Source of the DNA: a virus | Length of the DNA: 44,902 nt | Virus record (IMG/VR): IMGVR_UViG_3300048839_000566 | Location: 1-44,902 of that record | Direction: 5' to 3' (one strand) | Part shown: positions 4,258 through 22,194 of the stretch, piece after piece | How the letters are laid out: each line of letters opens with the position of its first letter | Position numbering within the stretch: position 1 is the first letter of the stretch | The notes under the pieces: model-generated | The model's database searches: none | What the model saw: only the letters and a program-made list of their open reading frames with translations | Told to the model about the DNA's origin: nothing | Position numbers and translations under genes: made by a program

Positions 4258-5892
4258 TCAAAACCCTTCCGTGTTGGTGCCTGATCTGATGACCCCGTAA
4301 CCGACCGACTCGTCAACCGTCGACGAGTCCCCCATCGCGGCGATCCCCTCGCTGAGCTTCCCTGATCCCCACGCTGTGAGCGCTACTGTATGCCTGTGCG
4401 CCCACTTCAAAAACTGCGACAACATATCCACCTGGTCCTTGGTCGCTGATACCGGGAACGCGAATATCTCGGCCTCGAACTCCAGCAGCCACGGGGCCGA
4501 CTCTGGGAGAAACACGCGCCCCGATTCAACCGTCGGTGATACGTCGTTGGCCCGCATGATCTTGTCACCGTGTGGCGACGGATCGAAGGGGATAACGGAG
4601 AACTGAAACGCTGGATCCGCCCGCAGCTCCTGAATCAACTGCGTGCCAGATGCCTTGTCCTCGATGATGATCCCGGACGGCTGCCACTGCATCGCCGCGC
4701 TTTTCGCCGACCGCTTGAGCGTCGGGAAGTCCACCCTGTCCCGCCATACGTGAAGAAGCTGGTAACCATCTCGCGAGATCCGCCACGTGCCAATCACCGA
4801 CGGGTCGTTCAGCTCGCCTGGCTTGTTCCCGGTGTCGATCGACTGGATGATAATCCCATCCTCCGCCGGGGAGCCGTAGCGTTGGAACCAATGCCGCTTG
4901 AATATCCCGCCCTCGGTCGGCGTCGGGCGCTGTTGATATAGCGCGCTCCAGTTTCGCTCCCCCTGCGTCCGCTTTTCCTGCTCCCAGTGCGCCACGGAAA
5001 ACCAATCTGTCCAAAGCCACTCGCCGATCTTTCGGCCCAGCGGGTCGTCGTGCCGATTGCACTCGGCAGGGAGTGATATTACATACCACTGCTCACCGTC
5101 CTGCGCCGTGACCCATCCGCTTTCCCCTTGCCAATTTTTCGGGAGGATGCGGCCCGATAGATCGTCTTCGTGCCAGCGGGTTTGTATGATCGTAATAAAT
5201 CCGCCAGGCTTTAGTCGTGTCCTTAAATCGGTTTTGTACGCCTCCCAAACCTTGTCCCGTATCGTTACACTGTCGGAATCGGCTCGCCCCTTGATCGGGT
5301 CATCGATGATCAGCCCGTCAGCCCGGTTGCCGGTGATCCCCGCGAGAATCCCCGCAGCCATGTAGGTGCTGCTGTTCTGGAGCGCCCAGTTATCTGCCGC
5401 CCGATTGTCAGATACCAGCTCGGTATCAAATATCTCGCGGAACTGCTTCGATCGCGTGATCTGGCGACACTTCCGGCCAAACCGCTGCGCCAACGTGCTG
5501 CCGTAGCTGGTGCAGATTACGTTGCGGCCCGGCTTTCGGCCCATGAACCACGTCGGGAAAACGACGGTGCCATATGAGCTCTTGGCGGAGCCGGGCGGCA
5601 TGAAGATCATCAGCCGCTTGATATCCCCCGCCTCCACCCGCATCAACGTATTGTTGATCAATACGTGGTGCTTGGCTGGCGTAACGTTGTCCGGGTAGAA
5701 CTGCTCACAATCGGGATCATCGTTGACCGGTACACCGGGGATTTCGATATGCTGGCAATAAGCGTTTAGATCGTTGTGTGCTTTGCTCCTATGGATTTTT
5801 TCGTATCCGCGCAACACTGCGGACAATTCAGATCGATCCAAGAGGTCCCACCTTGGCCGACAATTCGATGATTCTTGCTGCGATCTCTGCAT
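4258..5892 (-). CDS. Terminase large subunit
   Basis: A 544-residue ATPase/nuclease that pumps DNA into proheads. Walker A is MPPGSAKSS near residue 100, Walker B LIIDDP near 195, followed by the coupling motif FITIIQTRWHEDDLSG near 235-250. The C-terminal RNase H-fold nuclease shows QSIDTGNKPGE (first acidic residue), GIIIEDKASG and TKDQVDMLSQF (late acidic pair). The first 17 residues from ATG 5892 overlap the small-subunit frame; a TTG at 5841 with GGTGGGA upstream is an equally possible start. The size fits Mu gp28-like and related large terminases. Confidence 0.94.
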   Translation of the reverse strand: MQRSQQESSNCRPRWDLLDRSELSAVLRGYEKIHRSKAHNDLNAYCQHIEIPGVPVNDDPDCEQFYPDNVTPAKHHVLINNTLMRVEAGDIKRLMIFMPPGSAKSSYGTVVFPTWFMGRKPGRNVICTSYGSTLAQRFGRKCRQITRSKQFREIFDTELVSDNRAADNWALQNSSTYMAAGILAGITGNRADGLIIDDPIKGRADSDSVTIRDKVWEAYKTDLRTRLKPGGFITIIQTRWHEDDLSGRILPKNWQGESGWVTAQDGEQWYVISLPAECNRHDDPLGRKIGEWLWTDWFSVAHWEQEKRTQGERNWSALYQQRPTPTEGGIFKRHWFQRYGSPAEDGIIIQSIDTGNKPGELNDPSVIGTWRISRDGYQLLHVWRDRVDFPTLKRSAKSAAMQWQPSGIIIEDKASGTQLIQELRADPAFQFSVIPFDPSPHGDKIMRANDVSPTVESGRVFLPESAPWLLEFEAEIFAFPVSATKDQVDMLSQFLKWAHRHTVALTAWGSGKLSEGIAAMGDSSTVDESVGYGVIRSGTNTEGF

Positions 5893-6376
5893 CGCTCATT
5901 CCATCATAAGGATCGTCACCGGATGGCGTGGTCGGCGCCACTTTGTGCGGCTTATCAGTCCCGAGCAGCTTGGCGCGGCGATCTTGTATTCCTAACAACG
6001 ATTGAATATATCTCGGATCGCCGCACTGCCCGCCTGACTCAATGCGCGCCGATTTGCCGCTCTGTCCGCCGCCTCGAGGTTTATCCTCGACCACCTTTTT
6101 TTGCCAATCTCTTTTCGACCGTTCCCACTCGGTCAAAACTTCGATTTCCAAAGCATCCAGCTTTTGCAGTTCGCGAGCTATTACGTCGTTTATATCCTGT
6201 ACTGCCGACTTCCTCCACTCGTCTCTTACTGCCTTTAATTCCCGACTAATAGTCGCCTGATTTAGTCCAACCTTTTCCGCAATTTCCTGTTGCGTAATAT
6301 TGCCGAATAAAGCGAGTCGTGCTATCTCCGCTCGATCCTTTGCCCTCTTCTCCCGCGTTCTTCGAACCCCTGTCAT
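5828..6376 (-). CDS. Terminase small subunit (HTH DNA-binding)
   Basis: 182 residues directly upstream of and overlapping the large terminase. Residues about 15-50 form a helix-turn-helix, ARLALFGNITQQEIAEKVGL followed by NQATISRELKAVRDEW, then a helical middle region with ELQKLDALEIEVLTEWERSK and a C-terminal segment with DDPYDGMSDAEIAARIIEL. This layout (HTH, oligomerising coiled region, acidic tail that meets the large subunit) is typical of small terminases that choose the packaging start. The identification rests on fold pattern and position; a regulator is the alternative. Confidence 0.75.
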   Translation of the reverse strand: MTGVRRTREKRAKDRAEIARLALFGNITQQEIAEKVGLNQATISRELKAVRDEWRKSAVQDINDVIARELQKLDALEIEVLTEWERSKRDWQKKVVEDKPRGGGQSGKSARIESGGQCGDPRYIQSLLGIQDRRAKLLGTDKPHKVAPTTPSGDDPYDGMSDAEIAARIIELSAKVGPLGSI

Positions 6377-6458: not shown

Positions 6459-7565
6459 CTATTCGCCAACATACTTAAATGAATACGTTTTAACCTTGAC
6501 CCTAAATCCGCTATCCCTTGCCATGTTTCCCTTTTTCTTGCATGTTATATTCCGTTCAACTGCAATTAATCTCCATTTATCACTATGACGACATAGCGCT
6601 TTGTACATCGGGATGGATGAGAACTTAGCGCGAACTTCGTAATTGTTTGCCGTCATTATTTTGCTAGTTTCATTCACTAATTTAACTCCGAGCCCGAGCC
6701 CGACATAGTCGGGATGCACTACTGTCCGATTAAAATGCATTATCTTTTTTGTTTTTTTGTCGACCCACGGCATATAGTTTGCGAAACACTGGAAACCTAT
6801 TTGCTCATCATTCAAAAACAACCCGAAAGTTTCGATATGCCCTCCTGGCAATGAGTCGCTCAAATAATGATATTTGCTAAACATGCTCCACGTTCTTCTG
6901 TCGACGTTTCTGATTTGGAATACAAGCTGCTCGCTTCTTTTGAAGTCTCGCCAAAGTGACCTCCGATCGGTGTATGTTTGTTTATTGCAGTCAATAATCC
7001 AACACGGATTTAACCACTCTATCACGTCGTAATGGCACGAAAGCAATACTATCTTTTTATTATTGTTTCGTGCCATTTTTTGCACGCAATTGCTCATTGC
7101 TTTTGCCACAGTTCTATCTACAACCGATGTCCATTCGTCGACAGCGAACATTTCGTTATTTTCTTTTGTTAATAAAAGTGCGATTTCGGCCCTGGCCTTT
7201 TGGCCGTTGCTTAACGTATAAAATGGCCTAATCCAGCATGGCACTGACGTTAACCCCGCGCCGTTTAACACGGTAGCTCTGTCATCGTATGACATGCCGT
7301 CATGGAATTGTTCTATGATAGGCACGTCTTCTTTTACGACGCTGACGAATACGTCATCCCCGAATATTTTTTTCGCGAGGGTTGTTTTTCCGGACCCGGA
7401 CGCGCCTATTATTAGGCCAACATTAAAATCGGTTTCCAAGTCGGCCGTTATTGTTAAATGGTGAATTGATTTTTTTTCAACATCTATGTCTAATGAATTG
7501 GCCGCTTTTTGTGCCATAAACGACTTGCTGACCGGTGACTGTAATAGCACATCGTATTTTTTCAT
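6459..7565 (-). CDS. ABC-type ATPase fused to GNAT acyltransferase (COG2401-like; possible Mom-type role)
   Basis: 368 residues from ATG 7565 with AAGGAT six bases upstream. Residues about 30-200 are an ABC ATPase: Walker A GASGSGKT (54-61), a signature-like TLSNGQKARAEIA (118-130), Walker B MFAVDEW (139-145) and an H-loop SCHYD (176-180). There is no transmembrane domain. Residues about 225-350 form a GNAT fold with FSKYHYLSDSLPGG, FGLFLNDEQIGF and the acyl-CoA loop VVHPDYVGLGLGVKLV. ABC ATPases fused to a predicted acetyltransferase are a described but uncharacterised class (COG2401). Mu Mom, which modifies adenines in phage DNA, is itself a GNAT-fold enzyme, so a DNA-modifying role is plausible but inferred. 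The base composition is clearly more AT-rich than the flanks, suggesting recent acquisition together with the ParB-like gene it overlaps. Confidence 0.85.
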   Translation of the reverse strand: MKKYDVLLQSPVSKSFMAQKAANSLDIDVEKKSIHHLTITADLETDFNVGLIIGASGSGKTTLAKKIFGDDVFVSVVKEDVPIIEQFHDGMSYDDRATVLNGAGLTSVPCWIRPFYTLSNGQKARAEIALLLTKENNEMFAVDEWTSVVDRTVAKAMSNCVQKMARNNNKKIVLLSCHYDVIEWLNPCWIIDCNKQTYTDRRSLWRDFKRSEQLVFQIRNVDRRTWSMFSKYHYLSDSLPGGHIETFGLFLNDEQIGFQCFANYMPWVDKKTKKIMHFNRTVVHPDYVGLGLGVKLVNETSKIMTANNYEVRAKFSSIPMYKALCRHSDKWRLIAVERNITCKKKGNMARDSGFRVKVKTYSFKYVGE

Positions 7566-8101
7566 TCGGTTATCCTTACGCAATATCCTCTTGATATAAG
7601 CTCGCCGTATAAAACGTTTTGCTCCATTTCGTTTTTGCACGTAACGATAAGGTTGTATTCTATTGAGTCTTCACGTTCAATCATTTTCTTATCGTCTTGG
7701 TCTAATTTATCGTCAAGTAATTTCCCAACGCTTTTGTCGTCAAAACCAAGCAGGAAAATATCGAAATCAACTTCTTTTAAATGTTCTATTTCAATCCTTA
7801 ACTTATCTAAATCCCAATCGGCGTTTAATGCTATCTGGTTGTCTGCGATAATGTACGCGCTCTTTTGAGCTTCATTTAAATGATCGATAATAACTACAGG
7901 CACTTCTTCAATGCCCAGTTTTTTCGCCGCCATGACTCGGCCATGCCCTGCCATGATCTGTTTTTTGCTGTCGATTAAAACGGGATTTAGGAATCCGAAT
8001 TCGTTAATGCTCGCCGCGATCTGATTTACCTGGTCATCTGAGTGCGAGCGAGCGTTGTTGGGATAAGGCGTCAGTTCGATCACTTTGATTTTATTTATCA
8101 C
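7562..8101 (-). CDS. ParB/Srx-fold protein, partner of ABC-GNAT
   Basis: 179 residues from GTG 8101 (AAGGGG nine bases upstream). The N-terminal 90 residues are a ParB-like domain: LTPYPNNARSHSDDQVNQIA, then IMAGHGRVMAAKKLG (the G-H-G-R box that binds a nucleotide in ParB/sulfiredoxin folds) and AYIIADNQIALNADWD. There is no HTH of chromosome-partition ParB. The C-terminal 35 residues (EYNLIVTCKNEMEQNVLYGE, ending GYCVRITE) look like a small separate domain. ParB domains of this type in phages usually accompany DNA methyltransferases or DNA-modifying enzymes. The gene overlaps the ABC-GNAT gene by four bases, implying joint function. AT-rich like its partner. Confidence 0.85.
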   Translation of the reverse strand: MINKIKVIELTPYPNNARSHSDDQVNQIAASINEFGFLNPVLIDSKKQIMAGHGRVMAAKKLGIEEVPVVIIDHLNEAQKSAYIIADNQIALNADWDLDKLRIEIEHLKEVDFDIFLLGFDDKSVGKLLDDKLDQDDKKMIEREDSIEYNLIVTCKNEMEQNVLYGELISRGYCVRITE

Positions 8102-8491: not shown

Positions 8492-8684
8492 CTGCCTGAT
8501 CCTTGATCGTTGGGGCTTTCACTTTTTGGACTACGTTTCCGGCGATATATGCGGCGACGGTTGAGATTATTATGTCGCGGAATATCTCCGGTGATATTTT
8601 GGTGAACCATACCAGAGCGGTGCAGGCGATCCCGCATCCCATTGTCATGATGAAACGGCGCCCGCCGTAGGCTTCGAGGTTCAC
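8484..8684 (-). CDS. Holin
   Basis: 66 residues from GTG 8684, which overlaps the endolysin stop (GTGA). Two hydrophobic segments, FIMTMGCGIACTALVWF and IFRDIIISTVAAYIAGNVV, flank a short loop, and the C-terminus is polar (QKVKAPTIKDQAGG). Size, two-helix layout and coupling to an endolysin fit a small holin that permeabilises the inner membrane at lysis time. Assignment is by topology and context. Confidence 0.75.
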   Translation of the reverse strand: MNLEAYGGRRFIMTMGCGIACTALVWFTKISPEIFRDIIISTVAAYIAGNVVQKVKAPTIKDQAGG

Positions 8685-9124
8685 AATTTGAGCTCGAAGT
8701 GCGGGAATTCGCGGAAGGACGCGCCCGGCGATCCGTACCAGATGAGCCCGAGATCGGTCCCGATCTTGCCGACGCGCTGCCAGATCTCGAGATCGTCTGT
8801 GAGATCGTCCTCGGGGTTATCGTCGAGCCCGTTGCCTGTTGTCCCCCAGATACATTTGCCGCATCGCAGCGGAACCACGTCAAACGCGAGGGAGGCGGGT
8901 TTGCCCGAGAGGGTGTTGTTATGTCGGGATCTACCTGGGGGGGCGTTGGTGACGATCTTGCCGGGCTTGGTGCGGCCCCTCGCGTAGAGTTCGTGTTGCT
9001 CCGAGATGCTCCGATAGGTGCACGTGATGATCACAGCTATCCCGTCGCTCTCGCATCGGGCGATGAACGCTCTCGCGAGCGGCTGGAGTTTCGGGTGTAG
9101 ATCCTCAATTTTTCTGGACGGCAT
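8681..9124 (-). CDS. M15-family endolysin (L-alanyl-D-glutamate or D,D-peptidase)
   Basis: 147 residues beginning MPSRKIEDLHPKLQPLARAF, from ATG 9124 with AGGAGG eleven bases upstream. Zinc peptidase M15/VanY motifs are visible: TYRSISEQHELYARGRTKPG, NAPPGRSRHNN (first His with downstream Asp in LAFDVVP) and the closing REFPHFEL (H-x-E-type ligand and base). It cleaves peptidoglycan peptides at lysis, as in ChiX/T5-type lysins. No signal peptide is seen, consistent with release by the neighbouring holin. Confidence 0.9.
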   Translation of the reverse strand: MPSRKIEDLHPKLQPLARAFIARCESDGIAVIITCTYRSISEQHELYARGRTKPGKIVTNAPPGRSRHNNTLSGKPASLAFDVVPLRCGKCIWGTTGNGLDDNPEDDLTDDLEIWQRVGKIGTDLGLIWYGSPGASFREFPHFELKL

Positions 9125-9158
9125 TCCGCAATGATCCTCCTGTTGATCTGCGATCAGT

Positions 9159-9560
9159 CTACCTCCCGCCCTGCGATCGATCACCCTGCGACCGCCCATT
9201 ATCATCGACTGTTTCGCGCACCCCCATATCGGCCAGGATGTTTTGCACCGCCTTCCGGTCGAGCTGTAGCGCCCGTGATATCTCGCTGATCGATACCCCG
9301 GAGCAGTATTGCTCGCGGATATGATCGTCGCGCATTTGCCTCGCCGCGTTGACCTCCAGCGGGATATAGATCCGGTCGAACGTATGGCACATTTTGGCCG
9401 CCGACACGAAACCGATCTCGATGACGAGCGGGTGCAGGTCGTGGAGATCGCAATACGACGGGGTCGTATACGTGGAGCCGCCGTATTTGCGCGCCAGCCG
9501 TACCGCCGATTGGTGCCCAACTACCTCAATCAACTTTCGGAATTGCTCGCTGTCGCGCAT
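9159..9560 (-). CDS. Mor-family transcription activator
   Basis: 133 residues from ATG 9560, overlapping the preceding stop (TGATG). The N-terminal half has the Mor/C pattern RKLIEVVGHQSAVRLARKYGG, then HPLVIEIGFVSAAKM and IYIPLEVNAARQMRDDHIRE. The C-terminal HTH is CSGVSISEISRALQLDRKAVQNIL. In Mu, Mor and C switch on middle and late promoters. Here the gene lies at the early/late border, immediately before the lysis-packaging-structural block, so it probably activates that block. Its binding site was not identified. Confidence 0.9.
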   Translation of the reverse strand: MRDSEQFRKLIEVVGHQSAVRLARKYGGSTYTTPSYCDLHDLHPLVIEIGFVSAAKMCHTFDRIYIPLEVNAARQMRDDHIREQYCSGVSISEISRALQLDRKAVQNILADMGVRETVDDNGRSQGDRSQGGR

Positions 9561-9796
9561 CAGGCGCCCTCCTCGGTGGTCTCGGCCAGAAACAGACGCT
9601 CGCCGAAACAGTTTGACGGTATCCCATGATCGGAGACCTCTTGAATCGTCTCGCGAGCCCCGTTTGACCACCGCACCACGAAAACATGCCTCGCCTCACC
9701 GAACGGGTGATACGTGAATTTATACTCTGCCTTGTCGCCGTCCGAAGTGCGAGATATCGCGCCCGCCTTGGCCTTTTCGATATCGAACTTTTTCAT
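9560..9796 (-). CDS. Small protein with MKKFDIEKAKAG N-terminus
   Basis: 78 residues from ATG 9796 with GGGTGAAGGG just upstream. It opens MKKFDIEKAKAGAI, matching the MKPF(D/N)LE-A-x-x-G opening seen twice on the rightward arm (17703 and 20621). The family is frequent in phages but has no known function. The rest (KFTYHPFGEARHVFVVRWSN) looks like a small beta-rich fold. Tightly packed between the zinc-ribbon gene and the Mor gene. Confidence 0.7.
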   Translation of the reverse strand: MKKFDIEKAKAGAISRTSDGDKAEYKFTYHPFGEARHVFVVRWSNGARETIQEVSDHGIPSNCFGERLFLAETTEEGA

Positions 9797-10644: not shown

Positions 10645-10691
10645 AATTGTGTTCCCCGACTGCGTCCGTGTTGTTGCTGAATAAATAACCC

Positions 10692-10746
10692 TCGCCTCGC
10701 CTCGCCATGCCCTGCCGAGCCCCGCCGCGCCCAGCCATGCCCCGCC
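10692..10746 (-). repeat. GGCNN pentamer array C (11 units)
   Basis: On the minus (transcribed) strand, eleven contiguous 5-base units of the form GGCNN occupy this stretch; on the plus strand they read NNGCC. The array ends, in the direction of transcription, with GGCGA repeated three times and then GGGTTAT. It lies between the stop of the RAMP-like gene (10753) and the next gene start (10644). The first and second bases after GGC vary freely while GGC is fixed, unlike a simple microsatellite. No stem-loop or protein-coding role is evident. Confidence 0.85.
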
Positions 10747-10752
10747 AAACAT

Positions 10753-11392: not shown

Positions 11393-11462
11393 TCGATTTG
11401 CGTTGCCTTGCCCAACCGCGCCACGCCAACCCAAGCCATGACCTGCCGCGCCTTGCCGAGCA
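11393..11462 (-). repeat. GGCNN pentamer array B (degenerate)
   Basis: About 14 units in 5-base phase. Eight of eleven between 11403 and 11457 fit GGCNN exactly on the minus strand, the rest differ at one base. In transcription direction it ends CGAGGGTTAAC just before the ribosome site of the RAMP-like gene. It is separated from array A by a 15-base AT-rich spacer. Confidence 0.75.
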
Positions 11463-11477
11463 AATTTGTTATTACCC

Positions 11478-11542
11478 TCGCCTCGCCTCGCCTCGCCATG
11501 CCGTGCCTTGCCGAGCCTGGCCACGCCCGGCCCTGCCACGCC
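11478..11542 (-). repeat. GGCNN pentamer array A (13 units)
   Basis: Thirteen perfect contiguous GGCNN units on the minus strand, starting directly after the stop region of the DUF1064-like nuclease gene (11547) and ending with GGCGA four times and GGGTAATAAC. The shared end signature CGAGGGT(T/A)A in arrays A, B and C argues that these are copies of one element type rather than random GC-rich sequence. Confidence 0.85.
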
Positions 11543-11546
11543 CGTT

Positions 11547-14627: not shown

Positions 14628-14680
14628 TTTTTAGGCGCATAATATTGGCGAAGGATTTTAGGTGCATAAAATTACGAAGG
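14628..14680 (+). repeat. Tandem 26/27-bp leader repeat
   Basis: Two imperfect head-to-tail copies (14628-14654 and 14655-14680) share TTTTAGG(C/T)GCATAA and end in CGAAGG. They lie in the untranslated leader between the rightward promoter and the first start. They may be operators or RNA sites for an antiterminator. Confidence 0.55.
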
Positions 14681-14693
14681 TGGGAGGGCGAAA

Positions 14694-14822
14694 ATGACAC
14701 GAAAAAACAATTTGGCGATCGGCAAGATCGCCAAGGACGTGGCGGGGGCGGTTGGCACGCTGGTGCTGGTCGCGGTCTGGGGAGTGCTCCTCGCGGAGCT
14801 TTGGTGGGGGTGGTTCGCATGA
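14694..14822 (+). CDS. Small membrane protein (42 aa)
   Basis: ATG 14694 follows GGGAGGG, and the TGA overlaps the RecT-like start (ATGA). It has a basic start MTRKNNLAIGKIAKDV and one hydrophobic helix GTLVLVAVWGVLLAELWWGW. First gene of the rightward operon. Function unknown; the longer overlapping frame upstream of RecT is its shadow. Confidence 0.65.
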   Translation: MTRKNNLAIGKIAKDVAGAVGTLVLVAVWGVLLAELWWGWFA

Positions 14823-15691
14823 GTGAATTAACAGTGGTCAAACCGGCGTTCTGTTTGACGCCGACCAGCCTCGGTGAGGCGCAGCAGTTTGCGCTCATCC
14901 TGAGCAAAACGGAGTTGGTCCCCAAATCGTACCAGGGCAAGCCGGACGCCATTGTGGTAGCGATGGCGTGGGGCGCGGAGATCGGCCTGTCCGGGCTCCA
15001 AGCGGTGCAGAACATCGCCAGCATCAACGGCAGGCCCTCGCTCTGGGGCGATGCCGCGTTGGCGGTCGTGATGGCCCACCCCTCATACGAGGACCACGAG
15101 GAGCGGATCGAGGGGACCGGCGATCAGATGCGCGCGATCTGCGCCATGAAGCGCAAGGGGAAAAGCGACAAGACCGCCGAATTCTCGGTTGCAGACGCGA
15201 AAAAGGCCGGTCTCTGGGGCAAGCAAGGCCCTTGGACCCAGTACCCACAGCGGATGCTCCAGATGCGGGCGAGGGGTTTCGCGATGCGCGATCAGTTTCC
15301 CGACGCGCTACGGGGGATCTCGCTAGCAGAGGAGTCTCAGGATATCCCGGAGCGAGATATCACCGAGCGCGCCGAGGTGGTGATGCCGACTCCAAAGCGC
15401 AAGTCGGCTCCGACTCCGGTCGTTGAGGCGTCGCCCGAGCCTGAGCCCGCAAACGATCCAGCGCCCGCCACAGTCACCGAGGAAATCATCCCGGAAACCG
15501 GGGAGATCATCGAGCGCCCCGCCGTGGTCACGCTCTCGGAAAACCAGCTCCGCGTAATCCGCGCACAGCTCGCAGCCGCGAGCATCGAGGAGGCTTCAGC
15601 GGCCCAGCAATTCAGCCAGTCGCGCCTCGAAGCGATCCCGGCGAGCGATTGCAACGCGCTCCTCAAGTGGATTAAGGAGCAGCGCGCATGA
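14819..15691 (+). CDS. recT-like: RecT-family single-strand annealing protein
   Basis: 290 residues beginning MSELTVVKPAFCLTPTSLGE. The RecT core shows KTELVPKSYQGKPDAIVVAM, AWGAEIGLSGLQAVQNIASI, NGRPSLWGDAALAVVMAHPS and WTQYPQRMLQMRARGFAMRD. RecT anneals complementary single strands during phage recombination. A Pro/Glu-rich linker (about 230-265) precedes a C-terminal helical domain. The next gene encodes its exonuclease partner, as in redalpha/beta and recE/T pairs. Confidence 0.93.
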   Translation: MSELTVVKPAFCLTPTSLGEAQQFALILSKTELVPKSYQGKPDAIVVAMAWGAEIGLSGLQAVQNIASINGRPSLWGDAALAVVMAHPSYEDHEERIEGTGDQMRAICAMKRKGKSDKTAEFSVADAKKAGLWGKQGPWTQYPQRMLQMRARGFAMRDQFPDALRGISLAEESQDIPERDITERAEVVMPTPKRKSAPTPVVEASPEPEPANDPAPATVTEEIIPETGEIIERPAVVTLSENQLRVIRAQLAAASIEEASAAQQFSQSRLEAIPASDCNALLKWIKEQRA

Positions 15692-16320
15692 GCGACGTAA
15701 TATTCAAACCCGAGGATCACACCTACTGGCTGGGGCGGCATCGTCTCCCGTCGGTGACTGAGATACTCCAGCCGCTCACCGATTTCCGATTCGTCCGCGA
15801 GGACGTGCTGCAGTGGAAGTCGGATCTCGGTCGCGCAGTACACCGCGCGATCGAATTGCACCTGCTCGACGATCTGGAATACGACAGCCTGGGTGGGGAG
15901 GTCGCGCAATATTTCGCCCAGTTTTTGGAGTTTCAACGCGACTCCAATTTCCGCGCGATCGCGACAGAGTTGGTTGTGTCGCACCCGCTCGGATATGCCG
16001 GGACGCTCGATGCGGTTGGGGTTATCAATCGCAAAGTCGCGGTGATCGACTGGAAAACTACGACAGCACTATCTCCGACTGTCGGTCTCCAAACCGCAGC
16101 ATACGCCAACGCGGTCGACAAGACCCCCGGCGACATCCCGTCGGTAGAGGGCCGCAGATATGTGCTGCGACTCTCGACAGATAACTACAAGCTCCACCAA
16201 ATCCCAACGTCAAAATACGCGGGCGACCTGCTGACATTCGCGTCTCTTTTGCGAGTGCATCAATGGTGCGCCGAAAATTCCAAAACCATTAATCTGGAGA
16301 TCCCCGAAAATGTTGGATGA
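15688..16320 (+). CDS. PD-(D/E)XK exonuclease, RecT partner
   Basis: 210 residues, start overlapping the RecT stop (ATGA). Motifs: RAVHRAIELHLL (helix with the first conserved acid), HPLGYAGTLDAVGV (the D), VAVIDWKTTTAL (D-x-K) and GLQTAAYANAV (Q-x-x-x-Y). This is the RecB/lambda-exo nuclease pattern of phage exonucleases that resect ends for RecT. Confidence 0.88.
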   Translation: MSDVIFKPEDHTYWLGRHRLPSVTEILQPLTDFRFVREDVLQWKSDLGRAVHRAIELHLLDDLEYDSLGGEVAQYFAQFLEFQRDSNFRAIATELVVSHPLGYAGTLDAVGVINRKVAVIDWKTTTALSPTVGLQTAAYANAVDKTPGDIPSVEGRRYVLRLSTDNYKLHQIPTSKYAGDLLTFASLLRVHQWCAENSKTINLEIPENVG

Positions 16321-17020
16321 AATCACAATCAATAATCTCGCCAAATCATCTGAGCAACACGCGTTTTCCGCTTTGGAAATCGCGAAAACATATCAGATCG
16401 ATAACCAGGAGATGGCGGAGATGGCCGCCGATGAACTGGTGTCGATCAAGTCCAAGCAAAAGGAGCTGGACGAGCAGCGCAAGGCGTTCACGCGCCCGCT
16501 CGATGAGAAAAAGAAGGAAATTATGGCGCTGTTCGAACCGGCGGTCACGCTGCTGAAAGATGCCGAAACGGTGCTCAAGGGGGCGATCAATGCATGGGGC
16601 GAGGCGGAACGTAATCGCCTCGCGATCGAGCGCAAGGCGCAACAGGAAATATTGTTACGCCAGCAAATGGAGGCGGAGCAGGCCGCGCAGAAAGCACGCG
16701 ACGAGGCCGCAGCGGCGTCAAAAGCAGGCGACGAGGCGAAGGCTGGAGAGCTGATCCTCGCTGCATCCGCGAAAGAATCCGAAGCGGAGGCGGTCCAGTA
16801 TGCCGCGCTCGCAAGAGTCGAGCCAGCGAAATTGTCCGGGATCAGCGAGCGCATGGATTGGGATTTCGAAGTGATCGATCCTGCATCGATCCCGCGTGAG
16901 TATCTCGTGGTCGACGAGAGCAAGATCCGCCGCGTCGTGAAAGCGTTGGGCGCGGCGTCGAATATTGCTGGGGTTCGGGTTTTCCAAAAGCCGGTGGTGA
17001 GCGTCCGCGCTCGCCGATAA
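16310..17020 (+). CDS. Coiled-coil protein next to recombination genes
   Basis: 236 residues, overlapping the exonuclease end. The N-terminal 170 residues are a long Lys/Glu/Ala-rich coiled coil (QKELDEQRKAFTRPLDEKKK and QMEAEQAAQKARDEAAAASK). The C-terminus reads DPASIPREYLVVDESKIRRV then VKALGAASNIAGVRVFQ, a conserved ending of phage proteins found beside RecT/exonuclease. The role is unproven; some relatives are called host-nuclease inhibitors, but I see no Gam signature. Confidence 0.7.
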   Translation: MLDEITINNLAKSSEQHAFSALEIAKTYQIDNQEMAEMAADELVSIKSKQKELDEQRKAFTRPLDEKKKEIMALFEPAVTLLKDAETVLKGAINAWGEAERNRLAIERKAQQEILLRQQMEAEQAAQKARDEAAAASKAGDEAKAGELILAASAKESEAEAVQYAALARVEPAKLSGISERMDWDFEVIDPASIPREYLVVDESKIRRVVKALGAASNIAGVRVFQKPVVSVRARR

Positions 17021-17464: not shown

Positions 17465-17716
17465 ATGGCAAAATATTATTACGTTTCGGAAGCCGGAGAC
17501 TTTGACAACGCCGAAAGGATTTTGGCAGACGATGCCGAAGACGCTGCAAGAGCGCTGGCGGAATTGCAGTTTTGCTCGGAACCTCGCTTATATGGGGGAG
17601 ATGTCAGGTTCGTCGTGTCGATAGACGCCGATGGCGCATGCGCGGAGACGTACGATGTATCAGTTGAGTGCTGGCCGTATTTTGTAGCGATGAGGGTAAA
17701 AAATGAAACCATTTGA
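17465..17716 (+). CDS. Small acidic protein (83 aa), unknown
   Basis: Immediately follows the zinc-finger gene (ATG directly after TAA). It starts MAKYYYVSEAGDFDNAERIL, is acidic (DDAEDAARALAEL) and ends in a beta-like stretch. Its last 14 bases overlap the helicase start. No family recognised. Confidence 0.6.
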   Translation: MAKYYYVSEAGDFDNAERILADDAEDAARALAELQFCSEPRLYGGDVRFVVSIDADGACAETYDVSVECWPYFVAMRVKNETI

Positions 17717-19106
17717 TTTAGAAGCGGCGAAAGCGAGGGAGGCAAATATGACATATAAACAATTTATTGACCGGAAAAAGTTTATTGATCGATCGTGCGG
17801 ATTCGATCCGCAGGAGATGCGCTACCAGCTCAAGGATTTTCAGCGCGACATAACCGCATGGGCTTGCAGAAAGGGCAAATCGGCTATCTTTGCTGATACC
17901 GGTTTGGGTAAAACGTGGATGCAGCTAGCGTGGGCGGATCTCGTTTCCGCGCACGCTGGCCCTGTGCTGATCCTCGCGCCACTTGCGGTGAGCGAGCAAA
18001 CTATTGGCGAGGGCAAAAAATGCGGGGTGTACGTCGAGAAAATAACGCCATCCACTGTTATCGAACGCGGGGTGTATATCACAAACTACGAACAATTAGG
18101 GAATATCGACACGACTAAATTCGCCGGGATAGTTTTGGATGAATCGTCAATACTGAAAGGTTTCGACGGGAAAACTCGAAAGCTGATCACGGAGTTGTTT
18201 TCCAAAACCTTTTACCGCCTATCCTGCACCGCCACACCATCCCCTAACGATCTGATGGAGTTTGGCACACAGGCGGAATTTCTCGGCATTATGAGTGTTA
18301 CCGAGATGCTTGCGACATTCTTCACTCACGACGGATCAGATACCTCCAAATGGCGATTGAAGGGGCATGGCAGAACAAAATTTTGGGAATGGTTATCAAC
18401 ATGGGCTGTTTTTATCAGATCCCCGTCTGATTACGGGTACGACTCCACAGGCTACGATCTCCCGCCGCTGATTTATCACGAGCACGTTGTCGACAGCGGC
18501 GTTAAAGATGGATTGTTGCCGTGGATCGCTCAAAGTCTATCTGATCGCCAAAAGGCTCGACGCGACACGATTAATCAGCGCGTAGAAAAAGCTGCTGAGA
18601 TCGCTAATTCTATCGATGGACAGTGCCTGATTTGGTGTCACCTGAATGAGGAGTCTGAAAAGCTCGAAAACCGAATCAATAATTCTGTGCAGGTATTCGG
18701 ATCTCAGAAAGCAGAAACAAAAGCGAATTATTTGTTAGGATTTGCAAGTGGTGACGTTCACAGACTAATAACCAAACCATCAATCGCCGGATTCGGAATG
18801 AACTGGCAAAACTGCAGAGATATGGTTTTCGTTGGTTTGAGCGATTCATTCGAGCAGTATTATCAAGCGGTTCGCCGATGCTGGCGATTCGGACAAACGA
18901 TGCATGTTAACGTGCATATTGTTTCGAGCGATTCCGAAGGTGCAGTCGTAGCAAACATTAAATCAAAAGAGGCAAATCATAATTTGGTTGCGGCGGAAAT
19001 GCTTCGAACCGTTAAGCAGTTTCGAACGGATCTCAAGTCAACAGTAACCGAAAAGAATATTTATATTCCGAATAAACAAATGGAGGTTCCAAAATGGATG
19101 TGCTGA
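17703..19106 (+). CDS. SNF2-type DEXD helicase
   Basis: 467 residues. Motif I SAIFADTGLGKTWMQLAWAD, Ia LILAPLAV, II GIVLDESSIL (D-E-S-S), III LSCTATPSPND, and V/VI IAGFGMNWQNCRDMVFVGLS then QYYQAVRRCWRFGQT. This is the superfamily-2 SNF2 class common in phage replication or recombination regions. The first 15 residues are MKPFDLEAAKAREAN, an opening shared with unrelated phage proteins; a second ATG at 17748 with GAGGGAGG five bases upstream is an alternative start that would remove it. It overlaps a DNA methyltransferase gene, a frequent pair. Likely acts in DNA remodelling or strand separation. Confidence 0.88.
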   Translation: MKPFDLEAAKAREANMTYKQFIDRKKFIDRSCGFDPQEMRYQLKDFQRDITAWACRKGKSAIFADTGLGKTWMQLAWADLVSAHAGPVLILAPLAVSEQTIGEGKKCGVYVEKITPSTVIERGVYITNYEQLGNIDTTKFAGIVLDESSILKGFDGKTRKLITELFSKTFYRLSCTATPSPNDLMEFGTQAEFLGIMSVTEMLATFFTHDGSDTSKWRLKGHGRTKFWEWLSTWAVFIRSPSDYGYDSTGYDLPPLIYHEHVVDSGVKDGLLPWIAQSLSDRQKARRDTINQRVEKAAEIANSIDGQCLIWCHLNEESEKLENRINNSVQVFGSQKAETKANYLLGFASGDVHRLITKPSIAGFGMNWQNCRDMVFVGLSDSFEQYYQAVRRCWRFGQTMHVNVHIVSSDSEGAVVANIKSKEANHNLVAAEMLRTVKQFRTDLKSTVTEKNIYIPNKQMEVPKWMC

Positions 19107-20071
19107 ATCAGGTCATCACAGATAAATACGCGCTTTATAATGGCGATTGCGTAGAAGTGGTTTCATCATTGAAAGATGACAGTGTTGATTTTTCTATATT
19201 CTCGCCGCCTTTTGCATCTCTTTACACATATTCAAATTCAGATCGTGATATGGGTAATTGCACCGATAACGATGATTTTTTTGCCCACTTTTCATTTTTA
19301 GTCGAACAGCTTTACCGCGTAATTAGACCGGGCAGACTGGTCGCAATACACTGCATGAATCTACCATCCTCAAAACAGAATGACGGATTCATTGGTTTAA
19401 AAGACTTTCGAGGCGAACTTATTCGCAAATTTCAGGAATATGGATTTATATTCCATTCCGAGGTTTGTATTTGGAAGGATCCCGTGGTCGCAATGCAGCG
19501 GACAAAAGCGATCGGGCTGCTGCATAAACAGCTAAAAAAGGATAGCGCTCTATCTCGCCAAGGTATTCCCGATTATCTTGTTGTGATGCGCAAACCTGGA
19601 GAGAATACCAAACCGATCGCTGGTGAGCTTAAGTATTTTGTTGGCGATGAGTTGATGCGCAATTTTCGCGAAATTGTTCGCCATGACGGAAGGGTTGCGC
19701 AGATACCAAATGGCAACGGATCATCAGTGATTGATATTTGGCAGCGATACGCATCGCCGGTTTGGCATGACATCAACCAGAGCAACACGCTCAATTTCAG
19801 AGAGGGGAGAGAATCGGACGACGAACGACACATTTGCCCGCTACAGCTCGATGTGATTGAGCGGGCTTTGCAGCTTTGGAGCAACCCTGGCGATGTGGTG
19901 TTGACTCCATTTTTGGGGATTGGCTCTGAAGCATATTGCGCGATTTCATGCGGTCGACGCGCTATTGGCGTTGAATTAAAGGAGTCGTATTTTAATCTAG
20001 CTGTTCGTAACCTTAAAAGCGCTGAGACGCAACAGTACGATCTATTTGGTTCCGACGAGGTGGTGAGATGA
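19094..20071 (+). CDS. DNA N4-cytosine/N6-adenine methyltransferase, beta class
   Basis: 325 residues. Catalytic motif IV is FSIFSPPFASLYTYSN (S-P-P-F); the AdoMet-binding motif I follows later, at DVVLTPFLGIGSEAYCAISC then GRRAIGVELKESYF, i.e. the beta-class order. S-P-P-F occurs in N4-cytosine enzymes, but adenine specificity cannot be excluded. No restriction endonuclease is adjacent, so it is an orphan that may protect phage DNA from host restriction. Confidence 0.88.
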   Translation: MDVLNQVITDKYALYNGDCVEVVSSLKDDSVDFSIFSPPFASLYTYSNSDRDMGNCTDNDDFFAHFSFLVEQLYRVIRPGRLVAIHCMNLPSSKQNDGFIGLKDFRGELIRKFQEYGFIFHSEVCIWKDPVVAMQRTKAIGLLHKQLKKDSALSRQGIPDYLVVMRKPGENTKPIAGELKYFVGDELMRNFREIVRHDGRVAQIPNGNGSSVIDIWQRYASPVWHDINQSNTLNFREGRESDDERHICPLQLDVIERALQLWSNPGDVVLTPFLGIGSEAYCAISCGRRAIGVELKESYFNLAVRNLKSAETQQYDLFGSDEVVR

Positions 20072-21472: not shown

Positions 21473-21733
21473 ATGAATAAACACACCGAAGGCCCGTGGT
21501 ACGTGGGCGAAGAAAAAGACGGAGCGACGAGTATCGATTCTCAAGGGTGGGATTCGCTCGCCCTCGTTTATACACATCTCGACGGCGAGCCGAACCCGGA
21601 GGGAAAGTGGAATGCGGCGATTATTGCCCACGCGCCGGAAATGTATCGTCTCTTGTCTGCGCTGAGGGGTATCAACGCGATCGCCGCCGCAGTGGAACAT
21701 TTGCTATCTGAAATCGAGGAGGCTGCAAAATGA
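21473..21733 (+). CDS. Conserved phage protein (HTEGPW type)
   Basis: 86 residues after [23 protein letters not shown], then [20 protein letters not shown] and a helical end. The opening HT-x-G-P-W and the later NA-x-x-I-A-x-A-P-E-M are typical of a common small phage family of unknown function. Confidence 0.7.
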
Positions 21734-22194
21734 GCGGAGTTAATAAGGTTATCATCCTGGGCAATCTCGGGCGCGATCCGGAGACGCGCTACATGCCAAG
21801 CGGCGATGCGGTGACGACATTTTCGGTCGCCACGTCCGAAAGCTGGAAAGACAAAAACACCGGCGAAAAAAGGGAATCGACGGAATGGCACAACTGCGTG
21901 GCGTTTCGCCGACTCGGGGAGATCGCCGGGACATATCTCAAAAAAGGATCGAAAATATATCTCGAGGGGAAATTGAAAACAGAGACGTATGAAAAAGACG
22001 GGGCAAAAAGATACTCAACGAAAATCATCGTCGATCAGCTCCAGATGCTCGGGTCGAGAGACGGATCGGCAGATAGCTCCGCCTCAGATGATGGGGCGGT
22101 CGCGCACTACGACGAGCGAGCAGCAAGGACCCCGGCTCCGAGTCGGGATCAGACGTCGGAGCCGCCGATGATGGATGATGAGATTCCTTTTTGA
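21730..22194 (+). CDS. ssb: Single-stranded DNA-binding protein
   Basis: 154 residues with the OB-fold of [23 protein letters not shown], then [20 protein letters not shown] and [21 protein letters not shown] flexible linker leads to the acidic tip MMDDEIPF, the usual docking site for host replication and repair proteins. It coats single strands during phage replication and RecT-mediated annealing. Last gene of the compact early operon. Confidence 0.95.

Follow-up and report, generated by a model that had tools for sequence, protein, structure and literature searches.

The window analysed, all 44,902 nucleotides of the IMG/VR phage contig IMGVR_UViG_3300048839_000566, carries on its minus strand (6459-8101) a pair of genes encoding a ParB/Srx-fold protein and an ABC ATPase fused to a GNAT acyltransferase. 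The features of the locus are as follows:

9159..9671, minus strand: Mor-type late transcription activator, upstream (Pfam Mor, E 1.9e-5; phrog_836)
8681..9139, minus strand: VanY-type endolysin of the lysis cassette, upstream neighbour (Pfam VanY, E 1.4e-8)
7562..8101, minus strand: ParB/Srx-fold protein of 179 aa (Pfam ParB_N, E 1.2e-8; phrog_620, E 1e-53; tail profile, E 1.1e-12)
7562..7684, minus strand: C-terminal mini-domain of ParB, about residues 140-179 (co-occurrence with ABC-GNAT)
6459..7565, minus strand: ABC ATPase fused to a GNAT acyltransferase, 368 aa, start ATG 7565 (Pfam, PHROG, alignment and two AlphaFold models)
6939..7565, minus strand: ABC nucleotide-binding half (alignment; model pLDDT 94.8; PDB matches)
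6459..6956, minus strand: GNAT half (alignment; model pLDDT 90.8; GNAT fold)
5828..6376, minus strand: HTH protein, probable terminase small subunit, downstream neighbour (phrog_645 and HTH matches; directly before TerL)
4258..5892, minus strand: terminase large subunit, downstream neighbour (Pfam Terminase_6N and 6C)

Read along the minus strand, the Mor-type activator is followed by the endolysin, two small genes, parB and the ABC-GNAT gene, and then by the probable small terminase, the large terminase, a Mu-type portal and a Mu F-like head protein. The parB stop and the ABC-GNAT start share 4 bases (ATGA, 7562-7565). GC content was 39.8% in the ParB gene and 41.6% in the ABC-GNAT gene, compared to 51.7-60.1% in the three genes on each side, which agrees with the AT-rich pair between lysis and terminase genes described in the original prediction. 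That description of the genes was accurate except for the start codon of the second one: a start at GTG 7640 was ruled out since homologues begin at the position of ATG 7565, the likely start, where those of Pasteurella phage Pmp13 and Leptospira phage LE4 align.

The rest of the window is that of a mosaic phage, in which RecT-like, PD-(D/E)XK nuclease and SSB genes (14645-17020 and 21730-22194) are combined with the Mu-type portal gene, the Mu F-like gene and the Mor gene; the contig genes checked included no transposase. The other AT-rich stretch (17703-20071, plus strand, GC 45-47%) is a second DNA-modification module, composed of a helicase-type ATPase (SNF2/Helicase_C) and then an N6/N4 DNA methyltransferase (PF01555, E 1.2e-16). 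At 10690-10747 and 11415-11545, small genes are interspersed with short, imperfect repeats that are rich in GC (units CCTCG and GCCNNGCC).

The N-terminus of the ABC-GNAT protein matched ABC_tran and its C-terminus matched GNAT families in Pfam, while phrog_11143, of unknown function, covered residues 10-368 (E 2e-78), so that the two parts lie in one chain as had been proposed. Full-length homologues of 50-65% identity, far beyond chance, were found in unrelated phages; phage pT24 was recovered as a relative, and the contig protein was aligned with 12 phage members including QAX98348.1. Judged by this full-length, single-chain homology, it is a member of the ABC-ATPase/GNAT family (phrog_11143, pT24-type). 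Fusion of the two parts is not essential, since nine related loci (L003, L006, L009, L011, L012, L014, L046, L049 and L019, the last with the ABC part alone recognised) encode ABC and GNAT in separate ORFs. Searches of ncbifam and padloc returned generic ABC, ParB or methyltransferase-type matches alone, and no named system for the pair.

In the ABC half, the motifs of the ABC ATPase superfamily were complete (Walker A GASGSGKT, signature LSNGQK, Walker B/D-loop VDEWTSVVDR and H-loop SCHYD), with key residues invariant in 80 aligned relatives. The best PDB matches of its AlphaFold model were transporter-type nucleotide-binding domains, and no membrane domain was detected in the ABC-GNAT protein. 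The GNAT half begins with an almost invariant F-x-x-H-H-Y-L-S-type motif (FSKYHYLS in the contig protein) and has a conserved CoA-pyrophosphate loop, R-x-V-x-x-P-D-Y-x-G-x-G-x-G, which is intact in the contig protein; its model adopted a GNAT fold, with PDB matches at E ~1e-6.

The core of the ParB protein (about residues 1-125) matched ParB_N above the cutoff and carries the phosphate-binding GxxR box of the ParB/Srx fold as GHGR ('MAGHGRVMAAKKLG'), as originally predicted. It is a putative nucleotide-binding module, and nucleotide binding by such folds is supported by the portions of Kaljevic et al. 2025 (PMC12704722) available to us, which report phage ParB-fold fusions to methyltransferases and one bacterial ParB-acetyltransferase fusion that bound GTP. 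No HTH domain was found in the contig ParB and its neighbours are lysis and terminase genes; judged by these features, it is not a canonical segregation ParB of a ParABS system.

The extra C-terminal mini-domain that had been noticed in ParB is real and conserved among relatives, as a segment of about 40 residues with a beta-alpha-beta look by sequence. It was found in 219 of 225 ParBs that adjoin ABC-GNAT or are fused to it, and all 11 ParBs beside Mom lacked it; it was also encoded without the ParB core, as a small standalone protein, at L018, L020, L169 and L177 (with a weak match in L155). Reading the matches to residues 139-178 in L018 and L020 as truncated ParBs was rejected, as they correspond to the standalone mini-domain. 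Since the mini-domain tracks ABC-GNAT and also occurs alone, the simplest reading is that it is probably a docking adaptor for ABC-GNAT.

Starting from an alignment of 13 relatives, 80 viral loci and 80 from bacteria or archaea were collected; the family comprises at least 600 viral matches and 469 relatives in bacterial and archaeal genomes. A ParB was encoded directly upstream of ABC-GNAT in 145/172 evaluable related loci, which have common ancestry and are not independent samples, and two loci (L132 and L158) encode ParB, ABC and GNAT in one protein of about 610 aa. Thus the co-occurrence of the two genes that the original prediction had left to a database search clearly recurs in other genomes. 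ParB is not essential everywhere, since about one sixth of evaluable loci have no adjacent ParB. ABC-GNATs with neither ParB nor mini-domain nearby (L007, L014, L015, L017, L051, L071, L085, L090, L111 and others) include several that bear a C-terminal extension. Genes for ASCH domains, which are PUA-like and possible readers of modified bases, lie beside or near ABC-GNAT at 18 loci, from Streptococcus phages and mostly actinobacterial (L009, L012, L055, L104, L113, L122, L132 and others).

The ParB core module matched 476 phage records and is carried by phage DNA methyltransferases; among the matches listed, most stop near residue 125 and many are annotated as methylase. Two cultured phages, Appa and LeeroyJ, as well as seven or eight viral contigs have the same core directly upstream of Mom, with a ParB tail that is either a putative zinc ribbon of CxxC type or another conserved segment. 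A third type of tail, distinct from the zinc-ribbon-like and beta-alpha-beta ones, is seen at L280, L281, L282, L283 and L296, where the Mom-adjacent ParBs share a conserved C-terminal segment resembling 'INENSNGNALYYICEVF'. The Arthrobacter phages EastWest, which has ABC-GNAT, and LeeroyJ, which has Mom, are syntenic around the locus (62% identity in the upstream neighbour, 83% in the downstream DNA-binding protein and 46% in the sliding clamp), and their orthologous ParB cores share 52% identity over 133 aa and are followed by different tails. The two loci represent a natural exchange of ABC-GNAT and Mom beside an orthologous ParB. In addition, a Mom gene is directly followed by an ABC-GNAT gene at L295:2501-4269.

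The Mom profile PF25680 did not match the contig ABC-GNAT. When the GNAT half was compared by hhalign with 34 non-redundant Mom proteins, a score of 30.8 was obtained (P 7e-4, probability 27%, 53 columns), compared to scores of at most 15.8 in 40 column-shuffled controls, and the alignment put the HY motifs in register; global hhalign gave meaningless output. In Foldseek searches against viral models one Mom ranked 14th; against PDB the best matches were generic GNATs, that is, protein and small-molecule acetyltransferases (RimI, Ard1/Naa50 and similar), and the Mom structure 8bv8 was absent from the best 50. A generic GNAT structure alone does not make this half a protein acetyltransferase. 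We conclude that the GNAT half and Mom would be linked by distant kinship and not by family membership.

Some ABC-GNAT loci also encode PanD (aspartate 1-decarboxylase, PF02261, E ~1e-30, with its G-S cleavage site) together with a short CoA-transferase family III protein, and others encode a formyltransferase-like protein (PF00551). In reverse scans of the viral collection, ABC-GNAT was adjacent in 34/34 evaluable CoA-transferase loci and, for the best 80 formyltransferase loci, in 76/76 evaluable ones; PanD was present in 30 of 35 CoA-transferase loci. Both accessory sets are therefore dedicated to ABC-GNAT. On a tree of 181 ABC-GNAT proteins, accessory type changed 10 times, compared to a mean of 52.7 with shuffled labels. 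Because PanD and CoA-transferase-like genes accompany ABC-GNAT, PanD is suggested to produce beta-alanine and the transferase beta-alanyl-CoA as donor for the GNAT, a reading to be taken with caution as the CoA-transferase-like protein is about half the usual length. In the formyltransferase family N-x-H is expected, and the phage protein has G-F-H or G-Y-H at that position, which calls for the same caution. In L316-L321 and L326, PanD and the CoA-transferase-like gene have an ABC-GNAT gene on either side, an arrangement suggestive of two acceptors, or two steps, with a common donor. No match to PanD, CoA-transferase or formyltransferase was found in the whole contig, which carries the minimal form of the system alone, ParB plus ABC-GNAT.

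We consider it reasonably probable, on the basis of genome context, that the pair is a late-expressed, ATP-dependent, GNAT-type system for acylation of phage DNA, and members of the family probably place a small acyl group on phage DNA in a way similar to Mom of phage Mu. This reading draws on the ParB linkage with its two fusions and on the ParB core common to DNA methyltransferases and Mom. The EastWest/LeeroyJ swap, the specificity of the mini-domain and the dedicated, tree-grouped accessory enzymes point the same way, as do the Mom profile similarity above that of shuffles, the intact CoA loop and ATPase motifs, the Mom/ABC-GNAT adjacency in L295 and an independent published prediction. 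The DNA modification that had been proposed for this locus gains from the shared ParB core and the Mom swap, and loses from the weak relationship of its GNAT half to Mom: the best PDB matches are protein or small-molecule acetyltransferases, and the Mom match extends over 53 columns at 27%. The other parts of the original prediction, in which the ABC unit would be a DNA-clamp motor, ParB would handle the substrate and anti-restriction would be the gain, found no support here.

In such a system, the ParB core would bind nucleotide and probably engage DNA, and its mini-domain would dock to ABC-GNAT, as their co-occurrence suggests. Paired ABC domains would bind ATP, by which the GNAT half could be positioned or licensed on DNA, and the GNAT half would then move the acyl group from acyl-CoA to a base before genome packaging. 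In relatives, the donor would be supplied by the aspartate decarboxylase and the CoA-transferase-like protein (predicted beta-alanyl-CoA) or by the formyltransferase-like protein; the contig phage, having no donor-making enzymes, would therefore draw on host acyl-CoA. Such a modification would probably shield the phage from host nucleases; going on from DNA modification to anti-restriction is our inference.

Acylation of a protein is the alternative that survives best, and we regard it as rather unlikely. ParB and ABC would in that case steer the GNAT to DNA-bound targets, for example a host polymerase, nuclease or nucleoid protein, or else the terminase complex. Genome context fits DNA or a DNA-bound protein alike as the target, the best structural matches of the GNAT model (RimI, Ard1/Naa50 and similar) would suit this explanation, and PMC7824862, in the part available to us, refers to phage GNATs acetylating RNA polymerase. 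However, the ParB core is common to DNA methyltransferases and Mom, Mom and ABC-GNAT exchange at one locus, and simple acetylation would not call for dedicated donor-making enzymes.

A role in packaging or partition is improbable. ParB and the ABC ATPase would then make up a DNA-loading complex at the site of packaging, with the GNAT as a regulatory part, as could be supposed from the terminase large-subunit-like gene found within 5 genes downstream of ABC-GNAT in 81/144 evaluable loci and from the familiarity of both ParB and ABC domains in chromosome segregation. Nevertheless, the remaining loci, including some in T4-like, jumbo and tail-end positions, are untied to terminase, and the GNAT motifs and the PanD, CoA-transferase and formyltransferase partners would be left unexplained.

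Equally small is the probability that we assign to an enzyme of host takeover or anti-defence whose substrates would be free nucleotides, tRNA or some other small molecule. Small molecules and aminoacyl-tRNA are common substrates of GNATs, and the formyltransferase and decarboxylase partners are themselves small-molecule enzymes, yet neither the ParB core common to DNA modifiers nor the Mom swap is explained in this way. Finally, a recently acquired, non-essential cassette benefiting mainly the lysogenic host by defence or epigenetic marking, and not the infecting phage, is very improbable: the low GC of the pair, chromosomal loci with no nearby terminase (e.g. L161) and the ASCH-domain gene near 18 loci would fit it, whereas the pair lies just before terminase genes in many phages and within the lysis-to-terminase run in the contig.

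Beyond DNA acylation as such, we tentatively put forward, as a possibility that we would not yet favour, that one interchangeable ParB targeting core serves methyltransferases, Mom and ABC-GNAT, each coupled to it by its own C-terminal tail or fusion, and that the ABC-GNATs install acyl groups new to DNA, including beta-alanyl (by phage PanD and CoA-transferase) and a second, formyltransferase-dependent group. DNA acylation, if true, would turn this widespread family into a class of ATP-dependent enzymes whose acylation of DNA can be tested, and would account for many phage ParBs with no partition partner. The accessory genes point to specific guesses at the chemical group, and each variant exists in cultured phages: the minimal type, nearest to that of the contig, in Leptospira phage LE4 and Pasteurella phage Pmp13, the type with PanD and CoA-transferase in Rhodococcus phage Jace, and the formyltransferase type in Gordonia phage NHagos and Pseudomonas phage Komp_PAO1_1.

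The core idea of DNA acylation is not new, because Iyer and Aravind had already predicted that an ABC ATPase-coupled GNAT puts an uncharacterised acyl modification on a DNA base (PMC7824862, citing Iyer et al. 2013); the part of that paper available to us names Tenacibaculum phage pT24 and protein QAX98348.1. Theirs is the same family, as pT24 and QAX98348.1 were recovered here as L014 and L017. The contig form adds the tail-bearing ParB, and that part of PMC7824862 mentions neither ParB, the mini-domain, PanD, CoA-transferase nor formyltransferase. New here are the ParB linkage, the ParB core common to methyltransferases and Mom, the specificity of the mini-domain and the dedicated accessory enzymes. 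The term COG2401 was not found in the literature searched, and the paper on Leptospira phages LE3/LE4 contains nothing on restriction or DNA modification.

The ParB-CTPase-fold fusions of PMC12704722 are, like the contig ParB, non-segregation ParB folds tied to enzymes; as far as its available portions go, that survey concerns fusions within the same protein and does not describe a ParB/ABC-GNAT operon. Phage DNA methyltransferases with a ParB core (phrog_498, PADLOC MTase_II) have the same ParB module (about residues 2-140), fused to an N6/N4 methyltransferase, whereas the contig ParB has instead the mini-domain and an ABC-GNAT partner. Unlike ABC-GNAT, Mom of phage Mu (PF25680; PDB 8bv8) has no ABC ATPase, aligns over only part of the fold, shows no canonical CoA loop of the ABC-GNAT kind in the Mom alignment, and is accompanied by ParBs with other tails. 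Like ABC-GNAT, it has a GNAT fold with the HY motif in register, and in Arthrobacter phages it can stand where ABC-GNAT is otherwise encoded, beside an orthologous ParB.
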